From NCBI GenBank assembly GCA_002840735.1, contig PHBY01000003.1, positions 1-64,000 on the forward strand: a DNA stretch of 64,000 nucleotides. Direction: 5' to 3'. Below are positions 4,252 to 31,848 of the stretch, piece after piece. How positions within the stretch are numbered: position 1 is the first letter of the stretch; each line of letters begins with the position of its first letter. Origin of the DNA: Chloroflexi bacterium HGW-Chloroflexi-2. GTDB lineage: Bacteria; Chloroflexota; Anaerolineae; Anaerolineales; Anaerolineaceae. Position numbers and translations under genes: made by a program. Under the pieces are notes generated by a model that saw only the letters and a program-made list of their open reading frames with translations, was not told the origin of the DNA and made no database searches.

Positions 4252-7200
4252 ATGGTGAAAACTGATAATAAGCGTAAGAATCTCATAACAAGACTTCTCA
4301 CAATAAAAGATAAATCGGATAATAAACCTCAATCTGGCAATCTGCTCAGTTGGGAATTTATTATTGATTCAGAAGGGAATTATCTCAATATAAGCCCTGA
4401 AGTAACTGATTGCCTTGGTGTTCCTTCGTCTGAATTTCTGGATCAATCCATTTTTACTTTTTCAATTAATCAATCTTCCGGGGAAAAATTATTTGCGCAA
4501 TTTTCTGAACACAATTTCCCCCTGGATCTGGATGTAATCTTTTTATCAAATAATGGAAATTTGCTTTTCTGTAATTTGAAATTGACAATATTTTCTGAAG
4601 AATATCATTCAAGACCAACCTACATTGGCATTGTTCAAACCCTTGAGGATTTACACGGGACAATTAAACCGAGTTCGGATGGTCAGAATACAGAATTTTA
4701 TGCAGCTGAAACCCAAACACAGGCAATTGAGGAAGAAATCACCGAATTTTTAGAGGATATAAAAACAAACACAAAAGTCGAAGATCGAGTACCATCATTA
4801 AAGATTGCTGACACGCTATTCTCTCCTGCAATATTGGAGAATCTTCATCGTTTTTCGGTTGAAGTAAATCATCTGATTGAACCAATTGATATTTATAAAT
4901 TGACCTACAAAGTCATTAATGAGTTTGTACCGAATAATAATCTTTCAATGGGGATAGTAAATAAACAGGCCTCAAATCTGATTTACCCAATTCGAAAAAT
5001 TGAAAATGAAATTAGTTATTACCCGGAAGTAGATGATTTTGAGCCTATTCTAAAATATGTAATTCAAACCAACCAGGTTATTATTCAAAATGACCAGATT
5101 CCCCCATCTATAAAAAAAATATTAACTTCGCGATTCAATAATTTCCCGAACTCCTTGATAAGTGTTCCTATCAGCATCGGAAATCGGGTCTTAGGTGCAA
5201 TTGTTATCTATGATAAGAGAGAAAATAATCACTACACTGATAATGATCTGCAATACCTATCTGCCATCAGCACTAAAATGGCTACTGCCCTGGAAAATGC
5301 TTTCTTGTTTCAGGAAATGCAATACGCACTTTCTGTGATTGAAACACGCGAACAATACCAGACACTTATTTCCCAATCTGTAAAAATATTAGCCAAATCA
5401 GGGACTAAGAAATTGGATGAAGCTATTGGCTTGTTGGGAAAAGCTTCGAGTGTTGATCGCGTTTTCTATGCGCATTCAAACATTGGTGATGAAAGCAGAA
5501 CCTGGTCCATTCAATCTAATTGGCATTCTATAGATAGATACAATATAACTCATCTGACACATGAGATCCGTTTTGAGATTTTTGAGGAATTTATTCCAAC
5601 ATTAATTGAAAAACGTTATTTTCAGGTCAACAATGAAAATCTTGATCGACCGATTGATGAATGGTTGAGAAAAAGAGGAGCCAAATCCATTCTCATTTTA
5701 GCAGTACTCAATGACGATCCAATTCCAGGAATACTTGTGTTGGAAGATTTGCATCAAAATCATTATTGGAATGTCGATGAAATTCGATTCCTGAGTTTAG
5801 TTTCTGAAACATTATCCGGTGTTCTTGCAAATGAAGAACGCATATTGCAATTAAATAATAAATTATTAGAGACAGAAACATTAAATATTATTAAAGATCA
5901 ACTTTATTTTGCATCAAACATTGATGAAATTCTTCAAATAGTGATGAAGTATATCTTTTCATTGGATATCATTGAAAGTGCCGTATACATATTTGGGGAA
6001 CCAGAATCGACCAGACCTGATCATTATGAGGTGGTCGCAAATTGGTCAAAAAATCCAGATTTCAATCAACCAATTCAAACCCATACATTCGATCGAAATA
6101 CAGTGAATACTTTTTTTCAGCAAGAATTCCCCACATATTTTTCCAATGTAAAAAATGCAAACCTTTCCAATCGAATGATTCAAATGTTCTCTCAAATGAA
6201 CATTGCTGCGCTGGGTGTTATTCCACTCATATCAAAGAGTAGAAAAATCGGATCCATCTTATTATGTTCCGATATGGTTCATGAATTTTCAAAAGAAGAA
6301 AAAAATCTGGTTGATTCCTTATTAGCAGCAATAACAACTTCGGTTGAAAAATCCTTAATTCATGAACACTCTTTTGAAAAGTTTTTTGAGAACTCTTTTT
6401 TCAAAAAAATCAACAAATTAATCAAATCTCAAAATCCACATGACATGGTTTTGTATTTGTCCGAGATTATTCATGAATATTCAGAAGGTGATTGTTCTTT
6501 CTTCGTTCTTGAAAAAAAAGAAAATCCGAAATCGTTCGAATATTATGAATTAAACAAAGAATATTCAATCAATGAATTGTCACCACTTTATGATGATTGG
6601 AAATCAACAAAATTCAACGACCTGTTAAACGAGATAATAAAGTTAAATATTGATCATTTTGAAAATCTATCAAATTTGAATCTTCAGGATGAATTCCTTC
6701 AGGAGTTAAAAAAATATAGAATCGAAAGTGGTTATATTTTTCCAATTTATTTTGACGACCTTATGTCAGGTTTCATCACGATCTTTTCAAATAAACCATT
6801 GAACATAAACCCTGAAAATTTATCGAATCTGAAATATGCATTGAGTGAATTATCAATTCTTCTAACCAATCGATCCATATTAAGAGATTTCTCTGAACTT
6901 GATAACAAAATTAATATTTCAGCCAGTATTGTTCATGATACGTCATCTATTCTAAATTTGGATTTATTAATTAAGAATATAACAAAACAAATTCAGGAAA
7001 AATTTGGTTTTCTATCTGTAGCGATTCATGTTTGCAATAATGCAAATAATTTACTTGACAAAGTTTCTGTTTCTTATGAAGGGAATGATGATAATGACCA
7101 ACACGCATCGGGATTAAGAGAAAATTCTTATTTGATCATCTCAGATGTTTTTGAAAAAGGACAGGCTGTAATATTGAAGGATGCTTCAGACCAAAATGAG

Positions 7201-8130
7201 GATCCTGACAATGTAGAAACACTATGGACAAGGTCTCAGCTTGTCTTGCCACTAAAAATCGGAGATGAAATTATCGGTGTTTTGGATATCCACTCGAGCC
7301 GCTCCAATGATTTTGAATCAAAGGATTTACGTTACTACCAATTGTTGGCAGACCAAATTGCTATTGAGATTGAAAATGTTCGATTATATGAAAAAACCCA
7401 GAATATGATCGAAGATATATCCGATATAGATCGAGTAAAAAGTCAATTTTTGGCAAATATGAGCCATGAATTTCGAACACCTTTAAATTCAATAATTGGA
7501 TTTTCTAAGGTAATACTGACTGGAATAGATGGCCCCATCAACGAAACACAAAAACAAGATCTAACTGCGATTCACAGTGCCGGTCAATATTTATTAAGGT
7601 TGGTCAATGACATTTTAGATATAACCAAAATTGAAGCGGGAACAATGAAATTAACAATGACCAAAACAAATATTCCCGACCTTATCAATTCTTTGCTTCC
7701 ATCAGCCGAAAATCTGGTAAAAGACAAGGTTATAAAATTTGAAGTTGTCAATTCAGAGGATTTACCAGAATTAATTGTGGATCGGGATCGCATTGGCCAG
7801 GTATTGATGAATATCATTACCAATGCAATTAAATTTACTGAATACGGTAAAATCACAATTTCAACTTCTCTTGTCAAAGGATTAGGGAAAAATCAAGAAG
7901 TAATGATAACCATTTCTGACACAGGGATAGGAATAAATCAGGCAGATCAGGCGAAATTATTCAAACCCTTTGAGCAGGCTAAATCCACCGAAAATATCAG
8001 AGCATTTGGCTCAGGATTAGGGCTGGCGATCAGTAAATCTTTAATTCAACTTCATCGCGGAAGAATTGGTTTATTGAATAGCTCACCAGGAAAAGGTTCG
8101 ACTTTCTTTATCGCTTTACCAGTTAATTGA
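4252..8130 (+). CDS. Multi-GAF sensor histidine kinase
   Basis: This 1292-residue cytosolic sensor kinase has no membrane segment. An N-terminal PAS-like region (about 30-140) is followed by roughly five GAF-like domains between about residues 200 and 1050; several end in the typical helix that leads into the next domain. The kinase core is complete: H box with phospho-His1072 (NMSHEFRTPLNS), N box (NIITNAIKFTEYG), G1 (DTGIGI) and G2 (GSGLGLAIS). The long GAF array suggests it integrates small ligands or redox signals; no Cys/His set marks a haem or Fe-S site. It lies 12 bp after the response regulator gene, so the two form a likely pair. The input signal is unknown. Confidence 0.92.
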   Translation: MVKTDNKRKNLITRLLTIKDKSDNKPQSGNLLSWEFIIDSEGNYLNISPEVTDCLGVPSSEFLDQSIFTFSINQSSGEKLFAQFSEHNFPLDLDVIFLSNNGNLLFCNLKLTIFSEEYHSRPTYIGIVQTLEDLHGTIKPSSDGQNTEFYAAETQTQAIEEEITEFLEDIKTNTKVEDRVPSLKIADTLFSPAILENLHRFSVEVNHLIEPIDIYKLTYKVINEFVPNNNLSMGIVNKQASNLIYPIRKIENEISYYPEVDDFEPILKYVIQTNQVIIQNDQIPPSIKKILTSRFNNFPNSLISVPISIGNRVLGAIVIYDKRENNHYTDNDLQYLSAISTKMATALENAFLFQEMQYALSVIETREQYQTLISQSVKILAKSGTKKLDEAIGLLGKASSVDRVFYAHSNIGDESRTWSIQSNWHSIDRYNITHLTHEIRFEIFEEFIPTLIEKRYFQVNNENLDRPIDEWLRKRGAKSILILAVLNDDPIPGILVLEDLHQNHYWNVDEIRFLSLVSETLSGVLANEERILQLNNKLLETETLNIIKDQLYFASNIDEILQIVMKYIFSLDIIESAVYIFGEPESTRPDHYEVVANWSKNPDFNQPIQTHTFDRNTVNTFFQQEFPTYFSNVKNANLSNRMIQMFSQMNIAALGVIPLISKSRKIGSILLCSDMVHEFSKEEKNLVDSLLAAITTSVEKSLIHEHSFEKFFENSFFKKINKLIKSQNPHDMVLYLSEIIHEYSEGDCSFFVLEKKENPKSFEYYELNKEYSINELSPLYDDWKSTKFNDLLNEIIKLNIDHFENLSNLNLQDEFLQELKKYRIESGYIFPIYFDDLMSGFITIFSNKPLNINPENLSNLKYALSELSILLTNRSILRDFSELDNKINISASIVHDTSSILNLDLLIKNITKQIQEKFGFLSVAIHVCNNANNLLDKVSVSYEGNDDNDQHASGLRENSYLIISDVFEKGQAVILKDASDQNEDPDNVETLWTRSQLVLPLKIGDEIIGVLDIHSSRSNDFESKDLRYYQLLADQIAIEIENVRLYEKTQNMIEDISDIDRVKSQFLANMSHEFRTPLNSIIGFSKVILTGIDGPINETQKQDLTAIHSAGQYLLRLVNDILDITKIEAGTMKLTMTKTNIPDLINSLLPSAENLVKDKVIKFEVVNSEDLPELIVDRDRIGQVLMNIITNAIKFTEYGKITISTSLVKGLGKNQEVMITISDTGIGINQADQAKLFKPFEQAKSTENIRAFGSGLGLAISKSLIQLHRGRIGLLNSSPGKGSTFFIALPVN

Positions 8131-9689: not shown

Positions 9690-9707
9690 TAATGAAATTT
9701 TTCACAA
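9690..9707. promoter_or_regulatory. Candidate Rex-like operator before the hydrogenase locus
   Basis: TAATGAA-ATTT-TTCACAA matches the Rex pattern TTGTGAA-N4-TTCACAA at 12 of 14 arm positions, with a perfect right arm. A weak -10 (TAAAAT, 9722-9727) lies downstream, so a bound repressor would cover the -35 region. Rex is the NADH/NAD+ sensor that commonly controls hydrogenase and fermentation genes. No rex gene is in the window. Confidence 0.4.
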
Positions 9708-9755: not shown

Positions 9756-10148
9756 ATGCAGGTGAAGATGAATTTAGACGAATTAGTCAAAATTGTTGAC
9801 GGTAACGTATTAACAGATTTGTTTAATAAAAATGAAGTGATATTAGGTGGATGTGGTGCTGATTTGATGAGTGATGTGTTGGCATCTATAGAGCCAGGAG
9901 CTATATTACTCACAGGATTATGCAATCCACAGGTTATTCGCACAGCTCAAATGGCCGATGTAGCTGCTGTTGTACTGGTCAGAGGAAAAATACCACCTGA
10001 AACAACAATTGATCTGGCTAATGATGAAGAAATTCCTTTGATAACCTCACCTTTTGGCATGTTTGAGTTATGTGGACGGTTATACAAAGCCGGCTTGCCA
10101 AGTCTTGAAAAATCTGTAGCAGATCAATCAGATTGTGGTTGTGAATAA
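9756..10148 (+). CDS. DRTGG domain protein (first copy)
   Basis: This 130-residue protein is a stand-alone DRTGG-type domain, a fold named after a motif in CobB/PTA-related proteins and thought to bind a ligand or mediate contacts; its biochemical role is not known. Visible features are the N-terminal helix (LDELVKIVDG), the GGCGADLMSDVL segment and a Cys-rich tail ending DCGCE. It opens a run of four genes (DRTGG, CBS-ATPase, DRTGG, PHP) known from loci encoding NAD(P)-linked hydrogenases. The start could also be the ATG at 9768, behind AGGTG. A second, diverged copy lies at 11156. Confidence 0.8.
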   Translation: MQVKMNLDELVKIVDGNVLTDLFNKNEVILGGCGADLMSDVLASIEPGAILLTGLCNPQVIRTAQMADVAAVVLVRGKIPPETTIDLANDEEIPLITSPFGMFELCGRLYKAGLPSLEKSVADQSDCGCE

Positions 10149-10163
10149 AAGAATAGAGTCGCA

Positions 10164-11159
10164 ATGGCAGCCAATCCCCCACAAAGAAAGCGAATAATTT
10201 CAGACCAGGAAGCTGAAAATATTTCACGTGTAGAGGAATTGGCATATGAAATTAAGGTCAGCGAAGTTATGACCAGCGAATTGATTAGTTTCTCTCCAGA
10301 AATCAAAATGTATGAAGTTCTGGAAGTTTTTCGCCAAAAAAGAATATCAGGTGCGCCAATTGTTTCTCCCCTTGGAGATCTAATCGGAATCATATCCATG
10401 GAAGATTTGATTCGTTGTCTGATCGACAAGGATTTGGATTCGGCAATCAATAAGTATATGACCACCAATTTGTTCACCATTCTACCCACAGACCCAGTGA
10501 TCGAAGCATCCAAGAAATTTGTTTCTACGAATTTTGGCAGACTTCCAGTGGTCGACAAAGATCAAAAATTGGTCGGAATGATCACTAAAGGTGATATCAA
10601 TCGCGGTCTATTGCGAGCCTTGGAAACAGATTACCAGGAAGAAGAGATACGCAAATATAGAGCAAGTCATTTATTTGAAGATATAGAATCCGATCGTACC
10701 AGCCTCATCCTGCGTTATCAAATCCAACAGGGTGATTTTGATATTGGCGGGCAGGCTTCTTCCAACATAAAACGGGCATTAATTCGGTTAGGAGCATCCA
10801 AACAAATTGCTCGTCGATGTGGAATTGCCATCTATGAAGCTGAAATGAATCTCATCATTCACACGACCGAAGGTGGTGTGTTACGGGTAGAAATAGAACC
10901 CCATCAAATTTCTATTGACGCATATGATTATGGCCCCGGTATTAAAGATGTTGGTCTTGCAATGAAACCAGGATACTCCACTGCATCGGATGCGGTTCGT
11001 GAGATGGGTTTCGGAGCAGGCATGGGACTTGTTAACATTTCGCGTTGTGTAGATCAAATGAAACTGGAATCTGTCTGGGGAAAAGGTTCACGCTTAAAAA
11101 TGCGGTTATTCCTGGATTCAGAACATAAAAATAAAGAATCGGAGAATCAAAAATCATGA
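10164..11159 (+). CDS. CBS-pair protein with serine-kinase-like ATPase domain
   Basis: This 331-residue protein has two CBS motifs (about residues 30-155; VSEVMTSELISFSP and YMTTNLFTILPTDP), which usually bind adenine nucleotides. They are followed by a GHKL ATPase domain resembling RsbT/RsbW anti-sigma kinases (AIYEAEMNLIIH as N box, DYGPGI as G1, GFGAGMGLVNI as G2). It could read the cell's adenylate state and act on a partner protein, but no anti-anti-sigma or sigma gene lies next to it. It starts 15 bp after the first DRTGG gene and overlaps the second by 4 bp (ATGA), so the group is translationally coupled. Confidence 0.85.
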   Translation: MAANPPQRKRIISDQEAENISRVEELAYEIKVSEVMTSELISFSPEIKMYEVLEVFRQKRISGAPIVSPLGDLIGIISMEDLIRCLIDKDLDSAINKYMTTNLFTILPTDPVIEASKKFVSTNFGRLPVVDKDQKLVGMITKGDINRGLLRALETDYQEEEIRKYRASHLFEDIESDRTSLILRYQIQQGDFDIGGQASSNIKRALIRLGASKQIARRCGIAIYEAEMNLIIHTTEGGVLRVEIEPHQISIDAYDYGPGIKDVGLAMKPGYSTASDAVREMGFGAGMGLVNISRCVDQMKLESVWGKGSRLKMRLFLDSEHKNKESENQKS

Positions 11160-11506
11160 TTAATTTAGCTACCATAATAGATAAACTAGAATTAAAGGTA
11201 CTGACGGCAGAAAAAGATTTTTCGCAAATATCAGTTAAAAATGGATATACATCTGATCTTTTAAGCTGTGTGATGGCTGGAGCTCCCAACCAATCCATCT
11301 GGGTAACATTACAGGCACACAACAATATTGTCGCTGTTGCTGCCTTACTGGAACTCAGTGCCATCATTATTACCGAAGGTGCAACTCCAGATCCGGTTAC
11401 TATTCATAAAGCCAATGAAGAAGGTATCACTTTATTGCAGACTGAACAAAATTCTTTCCATGTAGTTGGCATGTTGTGGGAATTAGGGATTAGAGCAGAA
11501 AAATAG
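11156..11506 (+). CDS. DRTGG domain protein (second copy)
   Basis: This 116-residue protein is a second DRTGG-like domain. It shares with the upstream copy the spacing of the Leu-rich start, the segment ending in LLSCVMAGAP, and the final half (AVAALLELSAIIITEG, then a MLWELGI end matching MFELCGRLYKAG). It lacks the Cys-rich tail. Its start overlaps the CBS-ATPase stop as ATGA, so both are translated together. Function is unknown; the repeated DRTGG / ATPase / DRTGG order suggests the two small proteins act with the ATPase. Confidence 0.78.
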   Translation: MINLATIIDKLELKVLTAEKDFSQISVKNGYTSDLLSCVMAGAPNQSIWVTLQAHNNIVAVAALLELSAIIITEGATPDPVTIHKANEEGITLLQTEQNSFHVVGMLWELGIRAEK

Positions 11507-11514
11507 AGAAAATT

Positions 11515-12261
11515 TTGAAAAAATATAAAGCTGATTTACACGTGCATACGGTATTGTCTCCGTGTGCAGAAATAGAAATGTTGCCACCTCTAATCGTTTC
11601 AGAAGCAAAAATTCGAGGAATTGACTTAATCGCAATCACCGACCATAACGCTTCTGCTAATATCAGCGCAGTTCAAAAAGCAGCTCTTGGTTCTGGTATT
11701 ACGGTTCTGCCTGGAATGGAATTACAAACAAAAGAAGAAGTCCATGTAATTTGCCTGTTTGATTCAATTGAACAAATTGTTCAATTTCAAAATATTGTCG
11801 ATCAAAAACTCCCACCTATAAAAAATCGTCCTGAATATTTTGGTGAACAATTGGTTGTGGATGACAAAGGAGATTTCGTTCGGAAAGAAGAACGGCTTTT
11901 AATCACCTCAACAGACCTCAGTATCAACGAAGCATTTAATCTGGTTGATGAAATTGGTGGTATTTTCATACCTGCTCACGTCAATCGCAAAGCAAATGGA
12001 TTATTAGAAATTTTAGGTTTCGTGCCGGTTGACATCCCCATTTTAGCCCTGGAGATATCCAGACATATTTCACCAAAGGATGTGAAAATATTCTATCCTC
12101 AAATAAATTCATTCGAAATTATTCAAAATGGTGATGTACATCGATTATCTGAATTTATTGGAACAACGATTTTTGAAATTGAAAATCCTTCTATTAGTGA
12201 AATAAAGCTTGCAATAAGAAAAGAAGCAGATCGATCTTATTTTGTAAATTCCATAACTTAG
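11515..12261 (+). CDS. PHP domain phosphoesterase
   Basis: This 248-residue protein is a PHP-family metal-dependent phosphoesterase. The metal ligands are visible: DLHVHT at residues 7-12, AITDHNA, the Glu in PGMELQT, EEVHVICLF, PAHVNRK and GDVHRL. The family hydrolyses phosphoester bonds in substrates such as histidinol phosphate or nucleotides; the substrate here is unknown. The start is a TTG at 11515, since the first metal motif begins six residues later and no ATG precedes it. It lies 8 bp after the second DRTGG gene and closes the regulatory gene set. A 167-bp gap then separates it from the hydrogenase genes. Confidence 0.85.
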   Translation: MKKYKADLHVHTVLSPCAEIEMLPPLIVSEAKIRGIDLIAITDHNASANISAVQKAALGSGITVLPGMELQTKEEVHVICLFDSIEQIVQFQNIVDQKLPPIKNRPEYFGEQLVVDDKGDFVRKEERLLITSTDLSINEAFNLVDEIGGIFIPAHVNRKANGLLEILGFVPVDIPILALEISRHISPKDVKIFYPQINSFEIIQNGDVHRLSEFIGTTIFEIENPSISEIKLAIRKEADRSYFVNSIT

Positions 12262-12290: not shown

Positions 12291-12308
12291 TAGTGAAATT
12301 TGTAACAA
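12291..12308. promoter_or_regulatory. Candidate Rex-like operator before hndA
   Basis: TAGTGAA-ATTT-GTAACAA has the 7-4-7 Rex architecture and the same ATTT centre as the site at 9690. The left arm matches TTGTGAA at 6 of 7; the right arm matches TTAACAA at 6 of 7. It is in the only sizeable gap of the hydrogenase locus. It overlaps a 13-bp palindrome (ATTTGTAACAAAT, 12298-12310). Confidence 0.4.
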
Positions 12309-12428: not shown

Positions 12429-12935
12429 ATGGTGAAATACTTAAAAAACATTCCAGCGAACGATCCCTTGATTATTCCTGAACAAAGAGCAATCATTGAT
12501 CAGATTATTGAGGAACATCGGGATAAACCCGGAGCTGCAATGGTAGTTCTGGGAGAGGTACAAAGCAAAATTGGATGGGTATCAGAAGCCACTCAGGCGT
12601 ACCTGGCTGATCAATTAGAAATACCTGTCTCCACCATTCATGGTGTTGTGACATTTTATTCCTTTTTTACAACCAACCCGAAAGGGAAACACACGATTAA
12701 ATTCTGTATGGGCACAGCCTGTTATGTAGGTGGTGTCCCACAATTGATGGAAAAGGCAAAACAAATACTGGGAATTGATATTGGAGAAACGACTCCCGAT
12801 GGATTGATTACGTTGGAAATTTGTCGTTGTGTAGGCGCTTGCAGTCAGGCACCGGTTATCGTCGTTGATGAGGAAGTATTGGGCAGGGTAAAACCGAATA
12901 AACTTCCACAGGCAATCAAACAGTTACAAAAATAG
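12429..12935 (+). CDS. hndA: NuoE/HndA-type [2Fe-2S] subunit of the hydrogenase locus
   Basis: This 168-residue thioredoxin-fold protein carries one [2Fe-2S] cluster and passes electrons between the FMN subunit and its partners. The ligands are C93-x4-C98 ([12 protein letters not shown]) and C134-x3-C138 (CRCVGACSQAP). Its length matches HndA of Desulfovibrio-type NADP-reducing hydrogenases and the HydC subunit of bifurcating hydrogenases. GGAG precedes the start. It is more like the formate dehydrogenase NuoE at 22681 than the HoxE at 15780: the [10 protein letters not shown] and CRCVG(A/S)CSQAP blocks are shared. It begins an operon that runs without a large gap to 22433. Confidence 0.9.
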   Translation: MVKYLKNIPANDPLIIPEQRAIIDQIIEEHRDKPGAAMVVLGEVQSKIGWVSEATQAYLADQLEIPVSTIHGVVTFYSFFTTNPKGKHTIKFCMGTACYVGGVPQLMEKAKQILGIDIGETTPDGLITLEICRCVGACSQAPVIVVDEEVLGRVKPNKLPQAIKQLQK

Positions 12936-12951
12936 TTATACGGAATTGTGA

Positions 12952-13503
12952 ATGAAAGAATTATCGTTACATCTACTGGATATTGCAGAAAATAGCATAA
13001 ATGCAAATGCATCGCATGTAACGATTTGTATTGACGAAAACACATTGGAGGATCGATTAACAATGTCTGTCAAAGACAATGGTCATGGAATGACCCCGGA
13101 AATGGCTCTGAGAATTGTTGATCCTTTTACAACCAGTCGCACAACACGTAAAGTAGGTTTAGGGATACCTTTGTTAAAAGCAGCCGCTGAAATGTGCAAC
13201 GGTTTTTTGAAAATTAATTCCCAACCGGGCGAAGGAACAGAATTAATTGTCCAATTTCAACGCAGTCACATTGATCGAATGCCATTGGGTGATATGGCAG
13301 GGACCATTCTTCACCTGGTAGTCGGTTCACCTACAACACATTGGACCTTCAAATATAAAGTAAATGATACAAATTTTGAATTTGATGATCAAATCATTAA
13401 AGCTGAACTGGATGGCATTCCTCTCTCCGAGCCTATGGTTCTATCATTTATCAGAAATGAAATTTCAAATGGAATAAATAATATTTCAATCAATGAATAT
13501 TAA
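12952..13503 (+). CDS. GHKL ATPase-domain protein inside the hydrogenase operon
   Basis: This 183-residue protein consists mainly of a histidine-kinase-like ATPase domain: N box (LLDIAENSINANAS), G1 (VKDNGHGMT) and G2 (VGLGIPLLKAAAEM). It has no phospho-accepting His domain and no sensor domain, so it is not a classical sensor kinase. The last 75 residues are unrelated to kinases and may bind a partner. Genes of this type sit between hndA and hndB in many NAD(P)-linked hydrogenase loci, and the same placement is kept here, 16 bp after hndA. Its role is unknown; control of the complex by phosphorylation or by ATP-dependent binding is conceivable. Confidence 0.8.
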   Translation: MKELSLHLLDIAENSINANASHVTICIDENTLEDRLTMSVKDNGHGMTPEMALRIVDPFTTSRTTRKVGLGIPLLKAAAEMCNGFLKINSQPGEGTELIVQFQRSHIDRMPLGDMAGTILHLVVGSPTTHWTFKYKVNDTNFEFDDQIIKAELDGIPLSEPMVLSFIRNEISNGINNISINEY

Positions 13504-13529
13504 ATCTCAACATGAATAGGAGTAATATC

Positions 13530-13898
13530 ATGCCCACAATTAAAAGTATTGATGATCTCAAAAGAATTCGCGAAGAAGCTCTCAAAAAACAGGAAATGAA
13601 AAGTGCTTCCGGTCAAAAACAAATAATCGTTGGAATGGGAACATGTGGAATTGCGGCGGGTGCACGAGACACAATGAAAGCAATTCTTGAAAAGATTGAA
13701 AAAGATAATTTAAGTGGAATCATCGTCACTCAAACCGGCTGTATTGGAGTATGTGAAATGGAACCAATCGTTCAGGTTCAAATTGGTGATGGTCCAAAAG
13801 TCACATATGGAAAAGTCTCCAAGGATATCGCAGCCCGAATTGTTGATGAACATGTTTTGGCAGGAAATATTGTAAAAGAACACATGGTTAATATCTAA
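13530..13898 (+). CDS. hndB: HndB-type thioredoxin-like [2Fe-2S] ferredoxin subunit
   Basis: This 122-residue protein is a thioredoxin-like [2Fe-2S] ferredoxin of the HndB type. Cys39 (MGTCGIAAGARD) and C71-x3-C75 (TGCIGVCEMEP) are visible; the fourth ligand is not obvious, as in many family members. It should shuttle electrons within the flavoprotein complex. The start at 13530 is chosen because AGGAG lies 7 bases upstream; an ATG at 13512 would add six residues without a ribosome site. In other loci this gene is the separate form of the N-terminal domain found in HydB proteins. It lies between the ATPase gene and hndC. Confidence 0.87.
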   Translation: MPTIKSIDDLKRIREEALKKQEMKSASGQKQIIVGMGTCGIAAGARDTMKAILEKIEKDNLSGIIVTQTGCIGVCEMEPIVQVQIGDGPKVTYGKVSKDIAARIVDEHVLAGNIVKEHMVNI

Positions 13899-13931: not shown

Positions 13932-15716
13932 ATGATTAAATACTTTCGAACTCACGTCTTGGTATGCGTAGATCCAGAATGTCTCTCGAAAGGTGCCCAT
14001 GACATTGTAGACGCTCTCAACGATGAACTGGTAGCCACAGGATTAATCGACGAAGTTCAGGTACTGGAAACATCCAGAATTGGTGCCTGTTCGCAAGGTC
14101 CAGAAATGATGGTTTACCCGGAAGGTGTTCACTATGCTGGTATGACTGTGGACGACTTGCCCTATATTGTGGAAGAACATTTTCTTAAAGGTCGTGTTGC
14201 ACAGAAATTTATCCTACCCATCAAATCGATCAAAGACGAAGAACTGACTGCACCAACGGCAAAGGAAATTCGGGTTGTTCTCAGAAATTGTGGAGTTATT
14301 GATCCAGAGAATATCGAAGATTATATCGCCCAGGATGGCTACATGGCCCTGGCAAAAGTCATGACAGAAATGACCGCTGATGATGTCATCAACGAAATAA
14401 AAAAATCTGGTTTACGCGGACGGGGTGGCGCTGGGTTTCCTACATTTCTAAAATGGACATTCACAAAGCAGGAAAAAAGTGATGTTCGTTTTGTGATTTG
14501 TAATGCCGATGAAGGTGATCCCGGTGCATTTATGAACCGTCGTGTTCTCGAATCAGACCCCCATTCTGTCATCGAAGGAATGATTATCGCTGCATACGCA
14601 ATTGGTGCCAGACAGGGATACATCTATTGTCGAGCGGAATATCCCATTGCAGTTAAGACACTCAACATTGCCATTCAACAGGCTAAAGGTCTTGGGCTCT
14701 TAGGTGAAAATATCATGGGCACAGATTTTTCCTTTGATCTGGAAGTAAGAATGGGTGCGGGTGCATTTGTGTGTGGCGAAGAAACTGCCTTGATGAATTC
14801 AATCGAGGGTAAACGAGGCGAACCCCGACCAAGACCACCCTTCCCTTCTGTTAAAGGGTTATGGGATAAACCAACAAATATTAACAATGTCGAAACCTAT
14901 GCCAATGTTCCTCAAATAATCTTAAATGGTGCCGATTGGTTTGCAAGTATGGGCACAGAAAAAAGTAAAGGTACCAAGACTTTCGCAATGGCAGGTGATA
15001 TTAATCACACAGGTCTGATCGAAGTACCTATGGGCATTACGCTTCGAGAGATCATCTTCGATATTGGAAACGGAATTCGGGATAATAAAGAATTTAAAGC
15101 CATTCAAACAGGTGGACCCATGGGTGGTTGTTTACCAAAAGAATATCTGGATCTTCCTGTTGATTATGAATCGCTTGTCAAGGCCGGGTCCATGATGGGG
15201 TCTGGTGGAATGATCGTCATGGACGAAGACACCTGTATGGTGGACATCGCCCGGTTTTTTATGGAATTCACGCAGGAGGAGAGTTGCGGAAAATGCACGC
15301 CATGCCGGGTCGGTACAAAGCGCATTCTCGATATTCTCGAAAGAATATGCGCAGGACACGGCCGTCCGGGAGATATTGAACAACTTGAAATGCTTTGTGC
15401 AGAGATAAAACAAGATTCCCTGTGTGGTTTAGGGCAAGGTGCACCAAACCCAGTTGAAAGCACCTTAAAGCACTTTCGCGATGAGTATGAAGCCCATATT
15501 CTTGAAAAACGATGTCCTGCCAAAGTATGTAAGGCATTAATTCGTTATCAAATCATCGAAAATACATGCACGGGTTGTACTGTTTGTGCCCGAAATTGCC
15601 CGGTAAATGCAATTTCCGGAGAACGCCGCCAGCCACACTTTATTGATCCAGATACCTGTATTCGCTGTGGAATTTGTGTTCAGGTTTGTAATTTTAATGC
15701 AATTGAAATTGTTTAA
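13932..15716 (+). CDS. hndC: HndC/HydB-type FMN- and NAD(P)-binding flavoprotein with extra ferredoxin domain
   Basis: This 594-residue NuoF homologue is the flavin subunit, where NAD(P)H and ferredoxin electrons meet. It has an N-terminal thioredoxin-like domain with C12-x4-C17 and C53 (the fourth ligand position is Arg), the FMN/NAD site ([26 protein letters not shown]), the [4Fe-4S] site ([13 protein letters not shown] with a later SLCGLGQ), and a C-terminal 2x[4Fe-4S] ferredoxin domain (CTGCTVCARNCP and CIRCGICVQVCN). That last domain is typical of HydB-type subunits linked to electron bifurcation and is absent from HoxF-type subunits. Its final 300 residues are very close to the formate dehydrogenase copy at 23253, indicating a fairly recent duplication. 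Confidence 0.93.
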   Translation: MIKYFRTHVLVCVDPECLSKGAHDIVDALNDELVATGLIDEVQVLETSRIGACSQGPEMMVYPEGVHYAGMTVDDLPYIVEEHFLKGRVAQKFILPIKSIKDEELTAPTAKEIRVVLRNCGVIDPENIEDYIAQDGYMALAKVMTEMTADDVINEIKKSGLRGRGGAGFPTFLKWTFTKQEKSDVRFVICNADEGDPGAFMNRRVLESDPHSVIEGMIIAAYAIGARQGYIYCRAEYPIAVKTLNIAIQQAKGLGLLGENIMGTDFSFDLEVRMGAGAFVCGEETALMNSIEGKRGEPRPRPPFPSVKGLWDKPTNINNVETYANVPQIILNGADWFASMGTEKSKGTKTFAMAGDINHTGLIEVPMGITLREIIFDIGNGIRDNKEFKAIQTGGPMGGCLPKEYLDLPVDYESLVKAGSMMGSGGMIVMDEDTCMVDIARFFMEFTQEESCGKCTPCRVGTKRILDILERICAGHGRPGDIEQLEMLCAEIKQDSLCGLGQGAPNPVESTLKHFRDEYEAHILEKRCPAKVCKALIRYQIIENTCTGCTVCARNCPVNAISGERRQPHFIDPDTCIRCGICVQVCNFNAIEIV

Positions 15717-15779: not shown

Positions 15780-16262
15780 ATGACAAGTAAAAATGAAAAA
15801 GATCGTTTAATCATCGCAGCCGTTGATTCAGCGATCGATCATTTTGGAGAAAACCGGGAAGAACTGATTCCAATTTTAAATCACGTGAATCGAACACTCG
15901 GTTTTCTTCCTTCAGAAGCACTGGAGGAAATCAGCAACCGATTAAAATCATCCCGATCTCAATTGTTTTCAGTAGCCAGTTTCTATCACATGTTATCTAC
16001 CAAACCCAGGGGGAAACACGTGATTCAATTTTGTGAAAGTGCACCTTGCCACGTTGTCGGTGGTCGTGAAGTATGGCAAACATTGAAAGAAACAGTTAAC
16101 CTGGAAGAAGATGAAACCTCTCTGGATGGAAAATGGTCCCTCATTACTACCAGCTGTTTAGGGCTTTGCGGAGTAGGTCCGGTGATAGTTATCGATGATG
16201 ATGCTTATGGAAATGTCACACCGGAACAAATTAAAGATATTTTAGCCAAATACAGCGACTAG
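15780..16262 (+). CDS. hoxE: HoxE-like [2Fe-2S] subunit
   Basis: This 160-residue NuoE homologue binds one [2Fe-2S] cluster through C85-x4-C90 (QFCESAPCHVVGG) and C126-x3-C130 (TTSCLGLCGVGP). Its motifs (SVASFYHMLSTKPRGKH, VDD-type end) resemble HoxE/NuoE more than the HndA type used elsewhere in the window. It starts 63 bp after hndC and 10 bp before the HoxF-like gene, opening the second flavoprotein module of the same operon. It probably links the HoxF-like flavin subunit to the HoxU-like subunit. Confidence 0.88.
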   Translation: MTSKNEKDRLIIAAVDSAIDHFGENREELIPILNHVNRTLGFLPSEALEEISNRLKSSRSQLFSVASFYHMLSTKPRGKHVIQFCESAPCHVVGGREVWQTLKETVNLEEDETSLDGKWSLITTSCLGLCGVGPVIVIDDDAYGNVTPEQIKDILAKYSD

Positions 16263-16272
16263 GAGATAATCG

Positions 16273-17907
16273 ATGAAATCTGTACGATCAATGGTATTAG
16301 TCTCAAGCGATCCAGTCAGCATGGAGCGCGGTGCTGCACAGGTCTATGAAAACTTGAAAACTGAAATTGAAACATTAGGTTTATCGGATGAAATATCACT
16401 CTCAATGATTGGTGATGTCGGCAGGCATGATGCCTTACCTTTCGTTATTATTTATCCTGAAGCCACCATTTATGGCCCAGTAAAACCTGAAAATGCTCAA
16501 TATTTGGTAGAAGAACATTTATATAAGGGGCGTGTTGTTCCTGAATTACAGGCTTCTCATAAAGAATTAACCGGAAAAATTGCCTGGGTAAACGCCAGAA
16601 AAGGAACTTTGCCAGCAGAACAGCGAATTGTTCTCCAACGAGTAGGAATTATTGATCCAGAAAATATCGAAGAATATATCATCAATGATGGTTATCAAGC
16701 GTTAGGTAAAGTCCTTTCAGAAATGAGTCCAAGAGATGTCATTGAGGAAGTTAAATCATCCGGACTTCGTGGACGTGGTGGAGCTGGTTTTCCTACCGGA
16801 TTGAAATGGGGATTTGTTTCTGGCACACCGGCCAAGAAGAAATATGTTATTTGCAATGGCGATGAGTCTGAACCAGGCACCTTCAAAGATCGCCTGATTC
16901 TGGAAGGGGATCCCCACAGTATTATTGAGGCAATGTCTATTGCTGCTTATGCGGTGGGTGCCAATGAAGGTTTTATTTATATACGTGGTGAATATCTGCT
17001 TGCACAGGAACGGCTTAAGAAAGCTATAAAGCAAGCCTATGATTACGGAATCTTGGGTGAAAAAATCTTTGGCTCAGATTTCAATTTCGATATTCATGTT
17101 CACAGTGGTGCTGGAGCTTATATATGTGGCGAGGAAACTGCTCTCATTGAATCAATTGAAGGTAAAAGAGGTGAACCCAGAGCTCGCCCACCGTATCCCA
17201 CCACCCATGGTTTGTGGGGAAAACCAACACTCGTAAACAATGTTGAAACATTAGCGAATATCCCGGCGATTCTCCGCAATGGCGGAAAATGGTATCGAAG
17301 TTTTGGTACACCTTCCAGTCCAGGCACAAAAGTTTATACAATTTTGGGAAACGTCAATGTCACTGGATTAATTGAAGTACCCATGGGAATCACATTGCGA
17401 GAAGTGATTGCCATTTACGCCAAAGGGATGAAAAGAGACGTTAGCTTTAAAGTTGCTCAAACCGGTGGGTCCAGTGGTTCTATCATTCCAGCCAGTTTGC
17501 AGGATACACCGATGGACTTCGACTCGTTCCAAAACGCAGGTGTATCGTTAGGTTCTGGCGCATTATTGATATGTGATGAAAATACCTGTGTTTTAGACCT
17601 GGCAAAAGTTCTACAAAATTTCTTCAAAAAAGAGAGTTGTGGAAAATGTAATCCATGTCGTATCGGAAATGAAAGAGCTTATCAAATTTTGGAGAATATA
17701 TCTCAGGGAACTGGTACGATGCAGGATTTGGATGATCTGGCTATGATTAGCAAAAACCTTTTTGAGCTTTCAAATTGCGGTTTGGGGCAGACAGCTGGTT
17801 CACCAATTCGAGATATATTGAACCATTATAGAGCTGAAGTAGAAGCCCATATTAGATTAAAAGTTTGTCCATCCGGCGTATGTCCGATGAGTGGCAAAAG
17901 ATTATAA
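16273..17907 (+). CDS. hoxF: HoxF-like NADH-binding flavoprotein with a cysteine-free thioredoxin-like domain
   Basis: This 544-residue NuoF homologue should bind FMN, NAD(H) and one [4Fe-4S] cluster. The FMN/NAD site is of the classical NuoF type ([31 protein letters not shown]), and the cluster site is present (ESCGKCNPCRIG with a later SNCGLGQ). The N-terminal thioredoxin-like domain (residues 1-100) has no Cys at all; the CVDPEC pair of the neighbouring HndC is replaced by SSDPVS, so its [2Fe-2S] cluster is gone. The C-terminal double ferredoxin domain of HndC is also missing. GGAG precedes the start. It belongs with hoxE and the HoxU-like gene. Confidence 0.92.
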   Translation: MKSVRSMVLVSSDPVSMERGAAQVYENLKTEIETLGLSDEISLSMIGDVGRHDALPFVIIYPEATIYGPVKPENAQYLVEEHLYKGRVVPELQASHKELTGKIAWVNARKGTLPAEQRIVLQRVGIIDPENIEEYIINDGYQALGKVLSEMSPRDVIEEVKSSGLRGRGGAGFPTGLKWGFVSGTPAKKKYVICNGDESEPGTFKDRLILEGDPHSIIEAMSIAAYAVGANEGFIYIRGEYLLAQERLKKAIKQAYDYGILGEKIFGSDFNFDIHVHSGAGAYICGEETALIESIEGKRGEPRARPPYPTTHGLWGKPTLVNNVETLANIPAILRNGGKWYRSFGTPSSPGTKVYTILGNVNVTGLIEVPMGITLREVIAIYAKGMKRDVSFKVAQTGGSSGSIIPASLQDTPMDFDSFQNAGVSLGSGALLICDENTCVLDLAKVLQNFFKKESCGKCNPCRIGNERAYQILENISQGTGTMQDLDDLAMISKNLFELSNCGLGQTAGSPIRDILNHYRAEVEAHIRLKVCPSGVCPMSGKRL

Positions 17908-17944
17908 GTAATGAATTTTTATAATTGAACGAAGGAGAAACGCT

Positions 17945-19876
17945 ATGTATCAACTCAAAATAGATGATAAAGAAATAGAAGTGCCGGAAGGAACAACCGT
18001 TTTAAAAGCAGCAGGTATGGCTGGAATTGAAATTCCAACCTTATGTAATCACCCTGCACTTGAACCTTATGGTGGCTGTCGTTTATGCCTGGTAGAAATT
18101 GAAGGTGCTCGCACCTTACAACCAGCCTGTACGCTTCCTGTTTCTGACAAAATGGTGATCAAAACTCAAACAGAAAAAGTCAAAGATGCAAGAAAATTTA
18201 TCCTTTCTATGATCTTCAGTGAAAGAAACCATTTCTGCCCATATTGCCAGGTTAGTGGCAGTGATTGTGAATTACAGAATGCAGCTTACAGAGAAGGAAT
18301 GACACATTGGCCAATACAACCAAATTGGCAACCCTATCCTGTTGATGCCTCCCATCCATATTTTGTTTTAGAACACAACCGTTGCATTCTTTGCCGTCGT
18401 TGTGTGCGTGCATGTGCAGAGTTGGTTGGTAATTTCACACTTGGTATGGAAGAACGAGGAGCAAATACCTTATTGGTCGCCGACCTGGGAGTGCCATTAG
18501 GTTCTAGTTCCTGCATCTCATGTGGCGTCTGTGTGCAGATCTGCCCAACCGGTGCATTAATTGATCGCTGGAGCGCTTATCGTGGTCAGGAAAAAGATGT
18601 ATCTTCAACAAAGACGATTTGTCTTGGATGTTCAATTGGTTGTGGCATTGAGGTTTTACATCGTGATAATAACCTGATCAAAATCAACGGGGATTGGGAT
18701 GCCGAAATCAGTGGAGGTGTGCTTTGTGATGTAGGGCGATTTATCCCGATGGATGAAAAACGCAATCGACTGGTTACCCCCATGGTTCGAAAAGATGGCG
18801 CATTAAAAGCCGTAACATGGGATGAAGCATTATCCGTTGTGATGGAAAATTTCAAACCATTCATTAATAAAAAAGAAAACGGAATAGCAGCGATTGCCTC
18901 TACCAGATTACCTGCTGATGTGCTCTATTATTACAAACAAATCTTTGAAGAAATATTAGGCAGTAATATGGTCACCAGCACCGAAGAAGGACGCTACACT
19001 AAAGTTTTATCTGAATTTGCGGAAGATAAAGGTCCTTTCGAATCGAAATTATCTGAAATTCACAAAGCAGACACAATCATGACAATTGGTTTGGACCTGA
19101 CAAAGGATCATCAGGTTGCCGGCTTTTTCATCAAAAGGTTGATACCTGCAGGTACAAAGGTAATACCAGTCAGTTATGAATCCAGTGGTATGGATGCCTT
19201 TACACCTCATTCAATGATCATCGAACGAAATCAAGATCTTGCCTTTATTCAGGCATTAGATGCAGCTCTCACTGGTGTAGATAGTAGTCAATTTGCTGAA
19301 AAATCAGGCATCTCCACTCAGGAAATTACCGAAATTGCAAAATTGTTGGATAGCTCCAAAAATCTTGTAATTGTTTATGGAACCGACTTTGAAGCCAAAC
19401 AAAAAAGAGAAACTGTGCAATCATTGCTGAAACTTGCAAAGAAACTCAATGCAAAACTCATCAGCCCCAAAGGCAAAGCGAACAGTCTGGCTGCTGAGCA
19501 GTTGAAATTAAACAAACCATTTAATGTTAATGGTCATAATGCTGCTTATGTTGCCCTTGGTGATGAAGATCCTTCTCAGGCAATTATTAAGAAATTGGAG
19601 AATGTTCCATTCCTGGTAGTCCAGGCCAGTTATCATTCTGCGCTCACAGCAAAAGCAGATGTAGTGTTACCCGTGACCAACTGGTTGGAACAGAGTGGAT
19701 ATTACATCACTTGTGATGGACAGGTACAATTGGCAAATAAATCCTTACAATCTCCTGTTGATGTGAAAACGAATAAAGAAGTAGTGCTGTCAATTGCCGA
19801 CCGACTGAAAATTATTGTTAATCCAGTTTGGGATAAGGCTGTCAAATTAGAAAAATCTGTCGTCGAAATTGAATAA
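17945..19876 (+). CDS. HoxU/HydA-like Fe-S subunit with vestigial NuoG molybdopterin domain
   Basis: This 643-residue electron-wire subunit joins the flavoprotein to the [NiFe] dimer. In order it has a [2Fe-2S] domain (C34, C45, C48, C62), a His-Cys3 [4Fe-4S] site (H96, C98, C101, C108), two [4Fe-4S] clusters (C147-C157 and C190-C200 sets), a further NuoG-type [4Fe-4S] site (C226, C229, C233, C261), then about 370 residues of molybdopterin-oxidoreductase fold. That last part has no catalytic Cys/Sec site and is shorter than in NuoG, so it is probably structural. HoxU of cyanobacterial hydrogenases stops near residue 240; this form is closer to NuoG. Good GGAG ribosome site; 31 bp before the small subunit gene. 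Confidence 0.9.
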   Translation: MYQLKIDDKEIEVPEGTTVLKAAGMAGIEIPTLCNHPALEPYGGCRLCLVEIEGARTLQPACTLPVSDKMVIKTQTEKVKDARKFILSMIFSERNHFCPYCQVSGSDCELQNAAYREGMTHWPIQPNWQPYPVDASHPYFVLEHNRCILCRRCVRACAELVGNFTLGMEERGANTLLVADLGVPLGSSSCISCGVCVQICPTGALIDRWSAYRGQEKDVSSTKTICLGCSIGCGIEVLHRDNNLIKINGDWDAEISGGVLCDVGRFIPMDEKRNRLVTPMVRKDGALKAVTWDEALSVVMENFKPFINKKENGIAAIASTRLPADVLYYYKQIFEEILGSNMVTSTEEGRYTKVLSEFAEDKGPFESKLSEIHKADTIMTIGLDLTKDHQVAGFFIKRLIPAGTKVIPVSYESSGMDAFTPHSMIIERNQDLAFIQALDAALTGVDSSQFAEKSGISTQEITEIAKLLDSSKNLVIVYGTDFEAKQKRETVQSLLKLAKKLNAKLISPKGKANSLAAEQLKLNKPFNVNGHNAAYVALGDEDPSQAIIKKLENVPFLVVQASYHSALTAKADVVLPVTNWLEQSGYYITCDGQVQLANKSLQSPVDVKTNKEVVLSIADRLKIIVNPVWDKAVKLEKSVVEIE

Positions 19877-19907: not shown

Positions 19908-20447
19908 ATGAGTAAACCAAAAGTTGCAACCGACTGGATGGCAGGATGTGCTGGGTGTCACATGTCTTTGCTGGACATAGATGAAAGATTACTACAAGTT
20001 TTAGAGCTGATTGATTTACGTGCTTCACCGATAACTGACTTAAAAGAAGCAGATGAATCGGGTGTGGTTGTCGGTGTCCTGGAAGGTGGCATCAATAACA
20101 CAGCCAATGAACATCAAGCTAAGTTAATGCGCTCACGCTGCAAAATTCTCGTTGCCTTAGGTGATTGTGCAGTGTTTGGTGGTGTCCCTGCCATGCGGAA
20201 TTTCTTCACCATTGAAGAATCCTTAAGAAGAGCATACATAGAGACGGAAAGCACTGTGGATGGATTCATCCCAACGGATCCTGAGTTGGCAGTACCCACC
20301 CGTGTTCGAGCTGTATCAGAAGTCGTTCTTGTGGATATTCACGTACCTGGCTGCCCACCCAGTGCAGACGTGATTTTCCATGTGTTGTCTGAGTTGGCAC
20401 AGGGTAGAATTCCAGAAATCAAAGACGAAAACCTTCATTGGCATTAG
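19908..20447 (+). CDS. hoxY: [NiFe] hydrogenase small subunit (HoxY-like, group 3)
   Basis: This 179-residue protein carries the cluster proximal to the NiFe site. The ligands are C14-x2-C17 (MAGCAGCHMSLLD), C87 (LGDCAVFGG) and C149 (VPGCPP). It is the short form, without twin-arginine signal or the extra C-terminal cluster domain of membrane hydrogenases, so the enzyme is cytosolic and belongs with group 3 (HoxY, HydS). It lies 31 bp after the HoxU-like gene and 9 bp before the large subunit. Confidence 0.93.
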   Translation: MSKPKVATDWMAGCAGCHMSLLDIDERLLQVLELIDLRASPITDLKEADESGVVVGVLEGGINNTANEHQAKLMRSRCKILVALGDCAVFGGVPAMRNFFTIEESLRRAYIETESTVDGFIPTDPELAVPTRVRAVSEVVLVDIHVPGCPPSADVIFHVLSELAQGRIPEIKDENLHWH

Positions 20448-20456
20448 GAGAAAATA

Positions 20457-21887
20457 ATGGTAGCGCAAAAAATAACAATCGAACCTGTAACCCGTATTGA
20501 AGGGCATGCAAAAATCACCATTCACATGAAAGAAGATAATCAGTCCGTTGACCATGCTTATTTGCATGTGAACGAGTTCCGTGGATTTGAGAAATTCTGT
20601 GAAGGTAGAATGGTTTTTGAAATGCCATTAATCACCCCGAGAATTTGCGGAATTTGCCCTGTCAGCCACCATTTAGCGGCTGCTAAAGCTGGTGATGCCG
20701 TATTAGGTGCTCCTCCACCACGACCTGCATCACTATTGCGTGAATTAATGCATATGGGTCAGATTATCCAGTCGCATGGTATGCATTTCTTTGAATTAGC
20801 TGGTCCTGACCTATTACTTGGTTTCGATGCCGATCCGGCGATTCGAAATGTCGTTGGACTGGTTCAGAATGCTCCCGATATAACGGTTAAAGCCGTCCAA
20901 TTACGGAAATATGGACAGGAAATAATCCGAATCCTGGGTGGACGTCGTATTCATCCCACATTTGCCGTTCCAGGTGGTGTCAATAAAGCCTTAAGCGCAG
21001 CCGATCGAGATTTGATTCTTACAGGATTGGATCAGGCAATCGAGACAACCCAAATAGCAATTTCCATCATGAAAGATTGGGCAGCAAAAAACATGGAAGA
21101 TATCCAGAAATTTGCGGTTTTCCCAACCGGTTATTTTGGTTTGATTACGGAAGAGAACGGTCTTGAACTTTATGATGGTAATTTGCGCTTAATCGGTAGC
21201 GATGGAGAACAATTGGAACGGTTCCCGGCATCTAATTATCTCGATTTTATTGGTGAACATGTTGAGAATTGGTCGTACTTGAAATTCCCCTTTTACAAAA
21301 AATTAGGATGGCCGGATGGAGTTTATCGAGTCGGTCCATTAGGACGATTGAACATTATTGACAAAATCGACACGCCTCTTGCCAATGAAGAATTCAAAGC
21401 TTACAGGCAAATCAATGGAGGAAAACCGATAGAAAATACGCTGTATTACCATTACTCCAGATTGATTGAGACTTTATTTGCAGCCGAACGTGTTAAAGTC
21501 CTGTTGGACGACCCTGATATCCTTTCAAAAGATATACTCAATACCCGCCACAACTTCCAGGGTGAAGGTGTCGGTGTTATCGAAGCACCTCGTGGAACAT
21601 TAATCCATCATTATTGGGCAAATGAAAATGGTCAGATTCAGAAATTAAATCTGATTGTCTCAACAGGCCATAATAACTATGCCATGAGCAAAGCAGTCGA
21701 TATGGTTGCAAAGACCTATGTAAAAGGACCTGAGATTCACGAAGGTTTACTCAATCGGGTTGAAGCAGCTGTGCGTGCGCATGACCCATGTTTATCCTGT
21801 TCCACACATGCAGTTGGACAAATGCCCATGATCATTGATGTTGTCGATGCTGCTGGTACAACCATCCAGACTTTAAAGCGCGAATAG
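20457..21887 (+). CDS. hoxH: [NiFe] hydrogenase large subunit (HoxH-like, group 3)
   Basis: This 476-residue catalytic subunit splits or makes H2 at a Ni-Fe(CN)2CO centre. The four metal ligands are visible as R-x-CGIC (C64, C67) near the N-terminus and DPCLSC (C445, C448) near the C-terminus. After H451 comes a 25-residue tail (starting AVGQMP), the peptide normally cut off by a dedicated protease after nickel insertion; such a protease gene follows 3 bp later. The motifs and size match HoxH/HydL of soluble NAD-linked hydrogenases. GGAG precedes the start. Maturation should depend on the hyp genes at 28.5-34.3 kb. Confidence 0.95.
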
Positions 21888-21890
21888 GTT

Positions 21891-23238: not shown

Positions 23239-23252
23239 GGAGCATTTTTCAT

Positions 23253-28867: not shown

Positions 28868-28871
28868 TCAA

Positions 28872-31833: not shown

Positions 31834-31848
31834 CCCTGGGAGAATAAT

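Follow-up and report, generated by a model that had tools for sequence, protein, structure and literature searches.

What do two DRTGG proteins, an ATPase fused to CBS domains and a PHP-domain protein, encoded together, do ahead of a [NiFe] hydrogenase operon? We addressed this question in a 64,000-nucleotide stretch of DNA from Chloroflexi bacterium HGW-Chloroflexi-2 (contig PHBY01000003.1; the whole stretch is hereafter the window), in which the four genes lie at positions 9756-12261, and in other genomes that carry such genes. The set is tied to the Hnd flavoprotein, HndC, and this tie survives testing. On balance we think it probable, if not strongly so, that the four genes belong to a modular, sensor-driven GHKL switch dedicated to the electron-bifurcating NADH/ferredoxin enzymes of the Bfu type (Hnd/HydBC). 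The genes concerned are the following.

9756-10148, forward strand: D1, a DRTGG-fold protein of 130 amino acids (aa) with the motifs DLMSDVLA and GLxNPQVxRTA
10164-11159, forward strand: CBS-ATPase, with a tandem CBS (Bateman) pair, a long helix and a SpoIIAB-like GHKL ATPase
11156-11506, forward strand: D2, a second DRTGG-like protein (116 aa) with the DLxS motif in common with D1
11515-12261, forward strand: PHP-domain protein, TTG start, HxH, DH, H and DxH motifs kept
12429-12935, forward strand: NuoE/HndA-type [2Fe-2S] subunit (BfuC)
12952-13503, forward strand: ATPase 2, the second GHKL ATPase of the set, encoded on its own and classed as HisK-type from its position
13512-13898, forward strand: HndB-type thioredoxin-like ferredoxin, with a PF01257 match under the cut-off
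13932-15716, forward strand: HndC/HydB-type flavoprotein (BfuB), with an N-terminal thioredoxin (Trx)-like part, a NuoF core and a C-terminal pair of [4Fe-4S] domains

The open reading frames bear out the tight coupling described in the initial annotation, with a gap of 15 base pairs (bp) between D1 and the CBS-ATPase, an overlap of 4 bp between the CBS-ATPase and D2, and a gap of 8 bp between D2 and the PHP gene; a further 167 bp separate the PHP gene from the Hnd operon. The domain assignments held as well, all with Pfam scores over the cut-offs: PF07085 (DRTGG) scored 27.9 and 28.5 bits for D1 and D2 (cut-off 25.2; the D2 match is confined to its second half), CBS (PF00571) 100.1 bits over two stretches, HATPase_c 28.4 bits (cut-off 26.4) and PHP 33.9 bits (cut-off 26.4). 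Judged by its domains, the operon that follows encodes a Bfu-type flavoprotein core, predicted to bifurcate electrons, namely a NuoF core with Trx-like and two [4Fe-4S] domains, plus NuoE.

HndC accompanies the set in two phyla

We searched 301 Chloroflexota genomes with PF07085 and with a D1 profile. The profile matched in 15 genomes, 14 of which gave a second (D2) match, and a full-length HndC-type protein was encoded in all 15, compared with 29 of the 286 genomes without D1 (Fisher p = 3e-14, relatedness ignored). The HndC-type match lay on the same contig and at most 10 kilobases (kb) from D1 in 13 of the 15; G290 was cut by a contig end, and G192 had its match on another contig. In a second phylum, that of genome G315 (whose record is labelled Deltaproteobacteria), the D1 profile matched in 48 of 198 genomes and HndC in 144 of 198, with HndC present in 47 of the 48 D1 genomes versus 97 of the 150 others (p = 6e-7, relatedness again ignored). 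Among these 48, G497 has only matches with D2 scores and G491 is the sole one without HndC. Thus, the proposal of the initial annotation that the set has a role tied to the Hnd flavoprotein stands, and in neither phylum was the set equally frequent in genomes lacking that flavoprotein.

HndC was called in Chloroflexota by a rule chosen by eye among the matches listed to an E-value (E) of about 4e-164 (matches that begin no later than about query position 20, reach position 585 or beyond of 598 and score at least 600 bits), and in the second phylum by E <= 1e-185 alone. Because only the best four or six first-look candidates per genome were scored in both phylum counts, HndC negatives are less certain than positives. 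For D1 loci without a visible HndC, contig-end cases included, 21 of 23 genomes encoded HndC, with a best match of at least 868 bits; HndC was not found in the genomes of loci L037 and L039, where nearly all candidates were scored.

The flavoprotein is constant while its partner varies

For comparison of loci we used 80 named loci, the best 80 of at least 590 obtained with a Chloroflexota-led query, in which phylum proportions carry no meaning. L036 and L093 come from the same genomes as L035 and L033 and were excluded from the distance correlations and the 91-locus partner count, and kept in the other locus counts; by their record names, L045 and L049 share one genome and L088 and L094 another, and these were counted separately.

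Hnd genes were visible, by rule and with contig ends counted as misses, in 63 of 91 distinct loci. The partner of these 63, with labels checked on examples with Pfam and NCBIfam, was a window-type [NiFe] enzyme in 13, an HdrA-like protein in 9, FdhA in 5, [FeFe] HydA in 5 and complex I NuoABCD in 3, and it was not visible or lay beyond the locus in 28. HndB and HndC with NuoE are the constant part, while the partner varies between [NiFe], [FeFe], formate dehydrogenase, HdrA/Mvh and complex I. Within the window's own family, L023 carries the same set ahead of a formate dehydrogenase (TIGR01591 833.5 bits, over the cut-off). Loci of the Deltaproteobacteria kind also include complex I operons in which D2 and ATPase 2 stand after NuoD and ahead of NuoE or HndB (L073, L074, L089, L116, L118, L121, L123, L133 and L134), and PHP is sometimes missing there. 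In the complex I operons of L118, L121, L133 and L135, D2 and ATPase 2 come after NuoD and PHP was not detected (D2 of L135 appeared only in the D1-profile search).

Apart from HdrA, the partner types found with the set agree with those of the Bfu family, for which Schut et al. (2022) defined the HydBC core and [FeFe], [NiFe], formate and complex I partners (PMC9304861). The sections of that paper on which we draw mark regulatory genes only in a figure, with no analysis of the set, and HdrA/Mvh partners were not seen there. HndC reading frames of about 1014-1046 aa, some 400 aa above the usual length and with an extra part, occur in L034, L035, L042, L061, L081, L088, L090, L097 and L106.

The set consists of two separable halves

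The full order D1, CBS-ATPase, D2, PHP, NuoE, ATPase 2, HndB, HndC recurs in 10 of 13 Chloroflexota loci, and because of this recurrence we do not regard the grouping as chance. L035 is near-complete (NuoE was not called by the script, and D2 was visible only in the PF07085 and D1-profile searches), L027 ends at a contig edge, and L032 has just D1 and the CBS-ATPase.

The gene after D1 encodes the ATPase in 74 of 78 named loci (one at an edge) and in all 13 Chloroflexota loci, and ATPase 2 lies downstream of D2 within 1.8 kb in 49 of 59 named and 10 of 11 Chloroflexota loci. In the second phylum, where D1 and D2 were told apart at 110 bits (the weaker match of G483, 97.6 bits, is D1-like at its locus), 35 of 51 weaker, mostly D2, matches lay at most 5 kb from a D1, and G341, G379, G415 and G444 have one D1 with two D2. 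D1 and D2 also occur separately, which rules out a single indivisible unit of four genes as first described: the set splits into D1 with its ATPase, and D2 with PHP and ATPase 2, and D2 and ATPase 2 are found inside complex I operons without PHP. Distances in seven families over 47 loci were all correlated at 0.72-0.86, from which we conclude joint inheritance; pairing of particular proteins is only weakly indicated (partial r 0.26 for D1 and its ATPase, 0.50 for HndB and HndC). Two D1 copies stand in tandem in L131 (G452) and in G352:C14, followed in L131 by an ATPase of the short form described below.

Predicted folds, conserved motifs and a putative mechanism

The AlphaFold model of D1 (predicted local distance difference test, pLDDT, 91.4) has the DRTGG fold, with 2ioj (Z 17.2, root-mean-square deviation 2.1, 115 residues) and 3l2b (Z 15.2) as matches; similarities at Z of about 8 to 13 to NIF3, MurE, LpxD and others were treated as common fold only. 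The serine of DLxS is present in 48 of 48 D1 and 28 of 28 D2 sequences, whereas all 20 other DRTGG domains, a sample with several near-identical members, lack it. Conversely, D1 and D2 lack the GDR motif, its arginine being replaced by Asn or His in D1 (47 and 1 of 48) and by His in D2 (28 of 28), versus Arg in all 20 other domains. In the model, Ser39 of D1, a candidate phosphosite for a kinase of the SpoIIAB/RsbW type, is residue two of helix 38-44. A published DRTGG paper that turned up in the literature search deals with another, AAA-DRTGG protein.

The CBS-ATPase model (pLDDT 86.2, predicted template-modelling score 0.54) comprises a Bateman pair joined through helix 142-172 to a SpoIIAB-like domain (1til). 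The nearest folds to the CBS pair include AMP-bound CBSX2 and AcuB with AMP, ADP or ATP; from this fold and from what is known of the family, the pair should bind adenine nucleotides. The N, G1 and G2 ATP boxes are invariant in 42 CBS-ATPases (YEAExN, DxGxGI, GFGAGxGL). When the ATPase domain of the window was compared with the PDB by phmmer, no match was obtained at E 0.01. The TIGR01925 score of 46 bits, against a cut-off of 135, rules out orthology of the ATPase with anti-sigma F, and no STAS antagonist or PP2C phosphatase was among the Pfam matches of the four proteins and ATPase 2, to which this search was limited. The PHP protein keeps HxH, DHN, H of EEVH, PAH, and D and H of GDxH in 13 of 13 aligned sequences, which are metal-ligand motifs in this family.

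Partner-switching modules of the SpoIIAB/RsbW kind are one close comparison. The window likewise has a SpoIIAB-fold GHKL ATPase together with a small partner that carries a serine and, close by, a hydrolase; it differs in having DRTGG in place of the STAS antagonist, PHP in place of PP2C and a sensor fused to the ATPase, with no sigma factor noticed. Family II pyrophosphatases of the CBS-DRTGG type also use a CBS pair together with a DRTGG domain for regulation (3l2b, 3l31), whereas the window has separate proteins, no DHH domains, and D1 and D2 with DLxS and without GDR. In the pyrophosphatase, DRTGG hardly matters, according to the sections of one report (PMC11172384). We recognised no description of the set in the open-access literature, judged mostly from titles and the openings of abstracts.

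In the switch that we favour, a sensor would feed the SpoIIAB-like ATPase, this sensor being here the fused CBS pair reading adenine nucleotides and in other lineages an adjoining HydS protein resembling group D. The ATPase would act on D1, its nearly always adjacent partner, and the signal would pass onward to D2 and ATPase 2, which travel with the Hnd operon. The presumed end point is the flavoenzyme, whose activity or state would change in response. The GHKL protein would be the kinase for the DLxS serine of D1 and D2, and PHP the phosphatase that resets the switch.

CBS and HydS, the putative sensors, replace each other

In many lineages the ATPase has a short form of about 140 aa, without CBS, that usually adjoins a group-D-like HydS of 424-472 aa. 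The short ATPase of L080 matches SpoIIAB, including the Glu and Asn of the N-box, and the HydS-like protein of this locus has the layout Fer4 - Fe_hyd_lg_C - FeS, like the putative sensory group D (M2e) HydS of Thermoanaerobacter mathranii. The window differs from the T. mathranii neighbourhood in having the ATPase-fused CBS pair and no HydS, and DRTGG and PHP genes go unmentioned in those sections of its description that we consulted. Among the 80 named loci, 51 carry the CBS form (HydS in none), 25 the short form (HydS in 18) and 4 neither.

The initial annotation placed the set beside [FeFe] hydrogenases, which does not fit the form found in the window. HydA stands beside the set in six loci, five of which have an ATPase without CBS (four of these with a separate HydS-like gene), and L047 is the CBS exception, the only such locus in 91. 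The window's own genome (G000; 4.1 megabases (Mb), 99.87% complete) contains no PF02906 match (E <= 1e-10), and hence no group D HydS, and no HydF match. With neither an [FeFe] hydrogenase nor HydF, a role in H-cluster assembly is rejected here, as the initial annotation had argued from the [NiFe] enzyme downstream.

Similarly, 24 of 29 other CBS genomes gave no PF02906 match at that threshold. HydF was found in 1 of 31 CBS genomes (G000, 11 of the 13 Chloroflexota-locus genomes, plus those for 19 among the 51 named loci with the CBS form), in 8 of 18 HydS genomes and in 5 of 7 short-ATPase genomes without HydS, counts in which absence from an incomplete assembly proves little. The L082 genome has HydF and gave no match for HydG. 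In all 21 aligned HydS-like sequences the three motif regions of the H-cluster retain CP, PC and CxxGC, with the first Cys shifted by one relative to the HydA of L080. The HydS of six HdrA/Mvh-type loci (L066, L070, L079, L090, L098, L104) comes from genomes without a HydF or HydG match. In the HydS of L066, L070, L079, L098 and L104, the first N-terminal [4Fe-4S] motif carries another residue in place of its second Cys (CxGC to CxG[RHD]); L090 keeps this Cys. PF02906 proteins of 289-325 bits occur in three genomes without a HydF or HydG match, G536 (L065, L138; the match on a 4.8-Mb contig), G537 (L042) and G523 (L053).

It is possible, though we hold it with some doubt, that one GHKL-ATPase/DRTGG switch governs Bfu enzymes across phyla and that its sensor is exchanged, HydS serving where an H-cluster can be made and a fused, adenylate-sensing CBS pair where it cannot. 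The short ATPase would then be the missing partner of group D HydS, with D1 and D2 as outputs, and in Hdr/Mvh organisms that keep HydS without HydF and HydG, HydS would sense redox state through its iron-sulphur clusters, with no [2Fe] subcluster. The short ATPase is proposed as signalling partner because the CBS sensor is elsewhere fused to the ATPase (a fusion, or Rosetta Stone, argument). Papers on group D HydS mention an adjoining ATPase (PMC8163306, PMC3608648, in the sections consulted), and a 2026 paper states, in its corresponding part, that the interaction partners of group D HydS are still to be identified and that identifying them is critical (PMC13104023). G522, which has a CBS set and a separate short ATPase with HydS (L136), is a counter-example to neat replacement. 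The energy-state role proposed at the outset is suggested by the CBS pair alone and for the CBS variant only; other lineages carry HydS instead.

Alternative explanations and points against the switch

That the set assembles, matures or repairs Bfu enzymes, with chaperone-like GHKL ATPases, DRTGG adaptors and a PHP cofactor-repair hydrolase, is an unlikely alternative, and the best placed of those considered; in its favour, the ATPase 2 gene sits among the enzyme subunit genes. However, D1 is missing from many HndC genomes, and alternative sensors (CBS or HydS) would be unexpected on an assembly factor. Moreover, Thermotoga maritima HydABC produced in Escherichia coli has every cluster except [2Fe]H and bifurcates (PMC9499530, in the part consulted), a case that may speak against an assembly role.

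Rather less probable is a general nucleotide or redox signalling module, placed in Bfu operons by gene order alone and with no functional tie to the flavoprotein. Stand-alone copies of the set among housekeeping genes in Caldatribacterium-like genomes are in keeping with such a module (in L082 the full set is flanked by ValRS and mraZ, and L075, L083 and L101 have neighbours of similar length), as are D1-ATPase pairs beside unrelated genes. Yet the genomes of L075, L078, L082, L083 and L101 encode HndC elsewhere than at the D1 locus, as part of the 21 of 23 noted above, and the operons that contain or adjoin the set represent five partner types, all of which share HndB/HndC with NuoE.

The weakest alternative, and improbable in our view, is transcriptional control, in which the ATPase would hold a sigma or other transcription factor and free it on a nucleotide or H2 signal: the ATPase is similar to SpoIIAB, and Land et al., in the part consulted, suggest a regulatory role for group D HydS, which adjoins an AraC regulator (PMC8163306), but no constant sigma factor, STAS or DNA-binding neighbour was noticed (most neighbours are unlabelled, and no dedicated models were searched), and many hnd promoters already carry Rex-like sites.

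Several observations weigh against the dedicated switch itself. Many genomes encode HndC and lack the set (29 of 44 Chloroflexota HndC genomes, 11 of the 29 in one family), and the set is therefore dispensable. D1 and the ATPase also stand beside group-3b-like [NiFe] hydrogenases in L032, L043, L044 and, with PHP, L119 (the alpha subunits of L043 and L119 match sulfhydrogenase models best, below the cut-off), and beside unrelated genes. In 24 mostly atypical regions, 20 of them picked since most looked atypical, 7 of 12 D1 copies had no such ATPase adjacent; these non-Hnd pairs and lone D1 copies count against a strict one-to-one tie. The contacts between proteins of the set are predicted ones, and the invariant residues of D1 may line a ligand pocket instead of marking a phosphosite.

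Rex-like sites precede both units

Palindromes resembling the Rex consensus lie before the set and before the Hnd operon.

9690-9707, forward strand: Rex-like palindrome upstream of D1, TTGTGAA-N4-TTCACAA with 2 mismatches, a candidate operator
12291-12308, forward strand: Rex-like palindrome preceding the Hnd operon, which departs from the full consensus at 3 positions

Rex-like sites over the whole window (15 versus 10.8 expected) are not above chance, and the same holds for matches as good as that at 9690-9707 elsewhere in the window. What exceeds chance is their placement across relatives, not their number in the window: among Chloroflexota genes they lie upstream of HndA in 15 of 25 cases and of D1 in 8 of 26 (P <= 0.1, 100 mononucleotide shuffles each; about 2.5 each expected). 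Because such a site stands before each unit and recurs in relatives, the pattern suggests that the two units are separately transcribed and NADH-responsive. A Rex site has been predicted for hnd, in line with the palindromes here (PMC10084766, in the part consulted). Promoter-like sites, with 7 versus 11.3 expected in a scan for promoters and terminators, were uninformative.

Surroundings of the set in the window

Downstream of HndC, the window continues as follows.

15780-19876, forward strand: second NuoE, second NuoF and a NuoG-type subunit, presumed to belong to the same complex (NuoE and NuoF were named by reading and by their likeness to the first pair)
19908-22433, forward strand: [NiFe] small and large subunits and, by position, a presumed maturation protease
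22681-27679, forward strand: second Bfu-type enzyme, with NuoE, an HndC-type flavoprotein without the N-terminal part, and a formate dehydrogenase alpha subunit (TIGR01591 803.7 bits, over the cut-off)

As the formate dehydrogenase enzyme comes after the [NiFe] operon, one D1/D2 set stands beside two Bfu-type enzymes. The genome holds a third HndC-type gene on a different contig and only one D1/D2 set, D1 and D2 being its only PF07085 matches (E <= 0.001). Genes hypA, hypB, hypF and hypD follow the formate dehydrogenase enzyme at 28523-33199. Upstream of D1 and on the same strand as the set, a 1292-aa open reading frame (4252-8130) reads as a multi-sensor histidine kinase-like protein, with a gene that reads as hisS-like on the opposite strand between it and the set.

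Implications

In a great many anaerobes, Bfu enzymes set the balance among NADH, ferredoxin, H2, formate and quinones. If the reading proposed here is true, these enzymes would follow energy charge or H2 through a dedicated switch whose sensors can be exchanged, and group D HydS would gain, in the short ATPase, a partner open to testing. Such control would, moreover, extend to a proton-pumping respiratory enzyme in the complex I cases.

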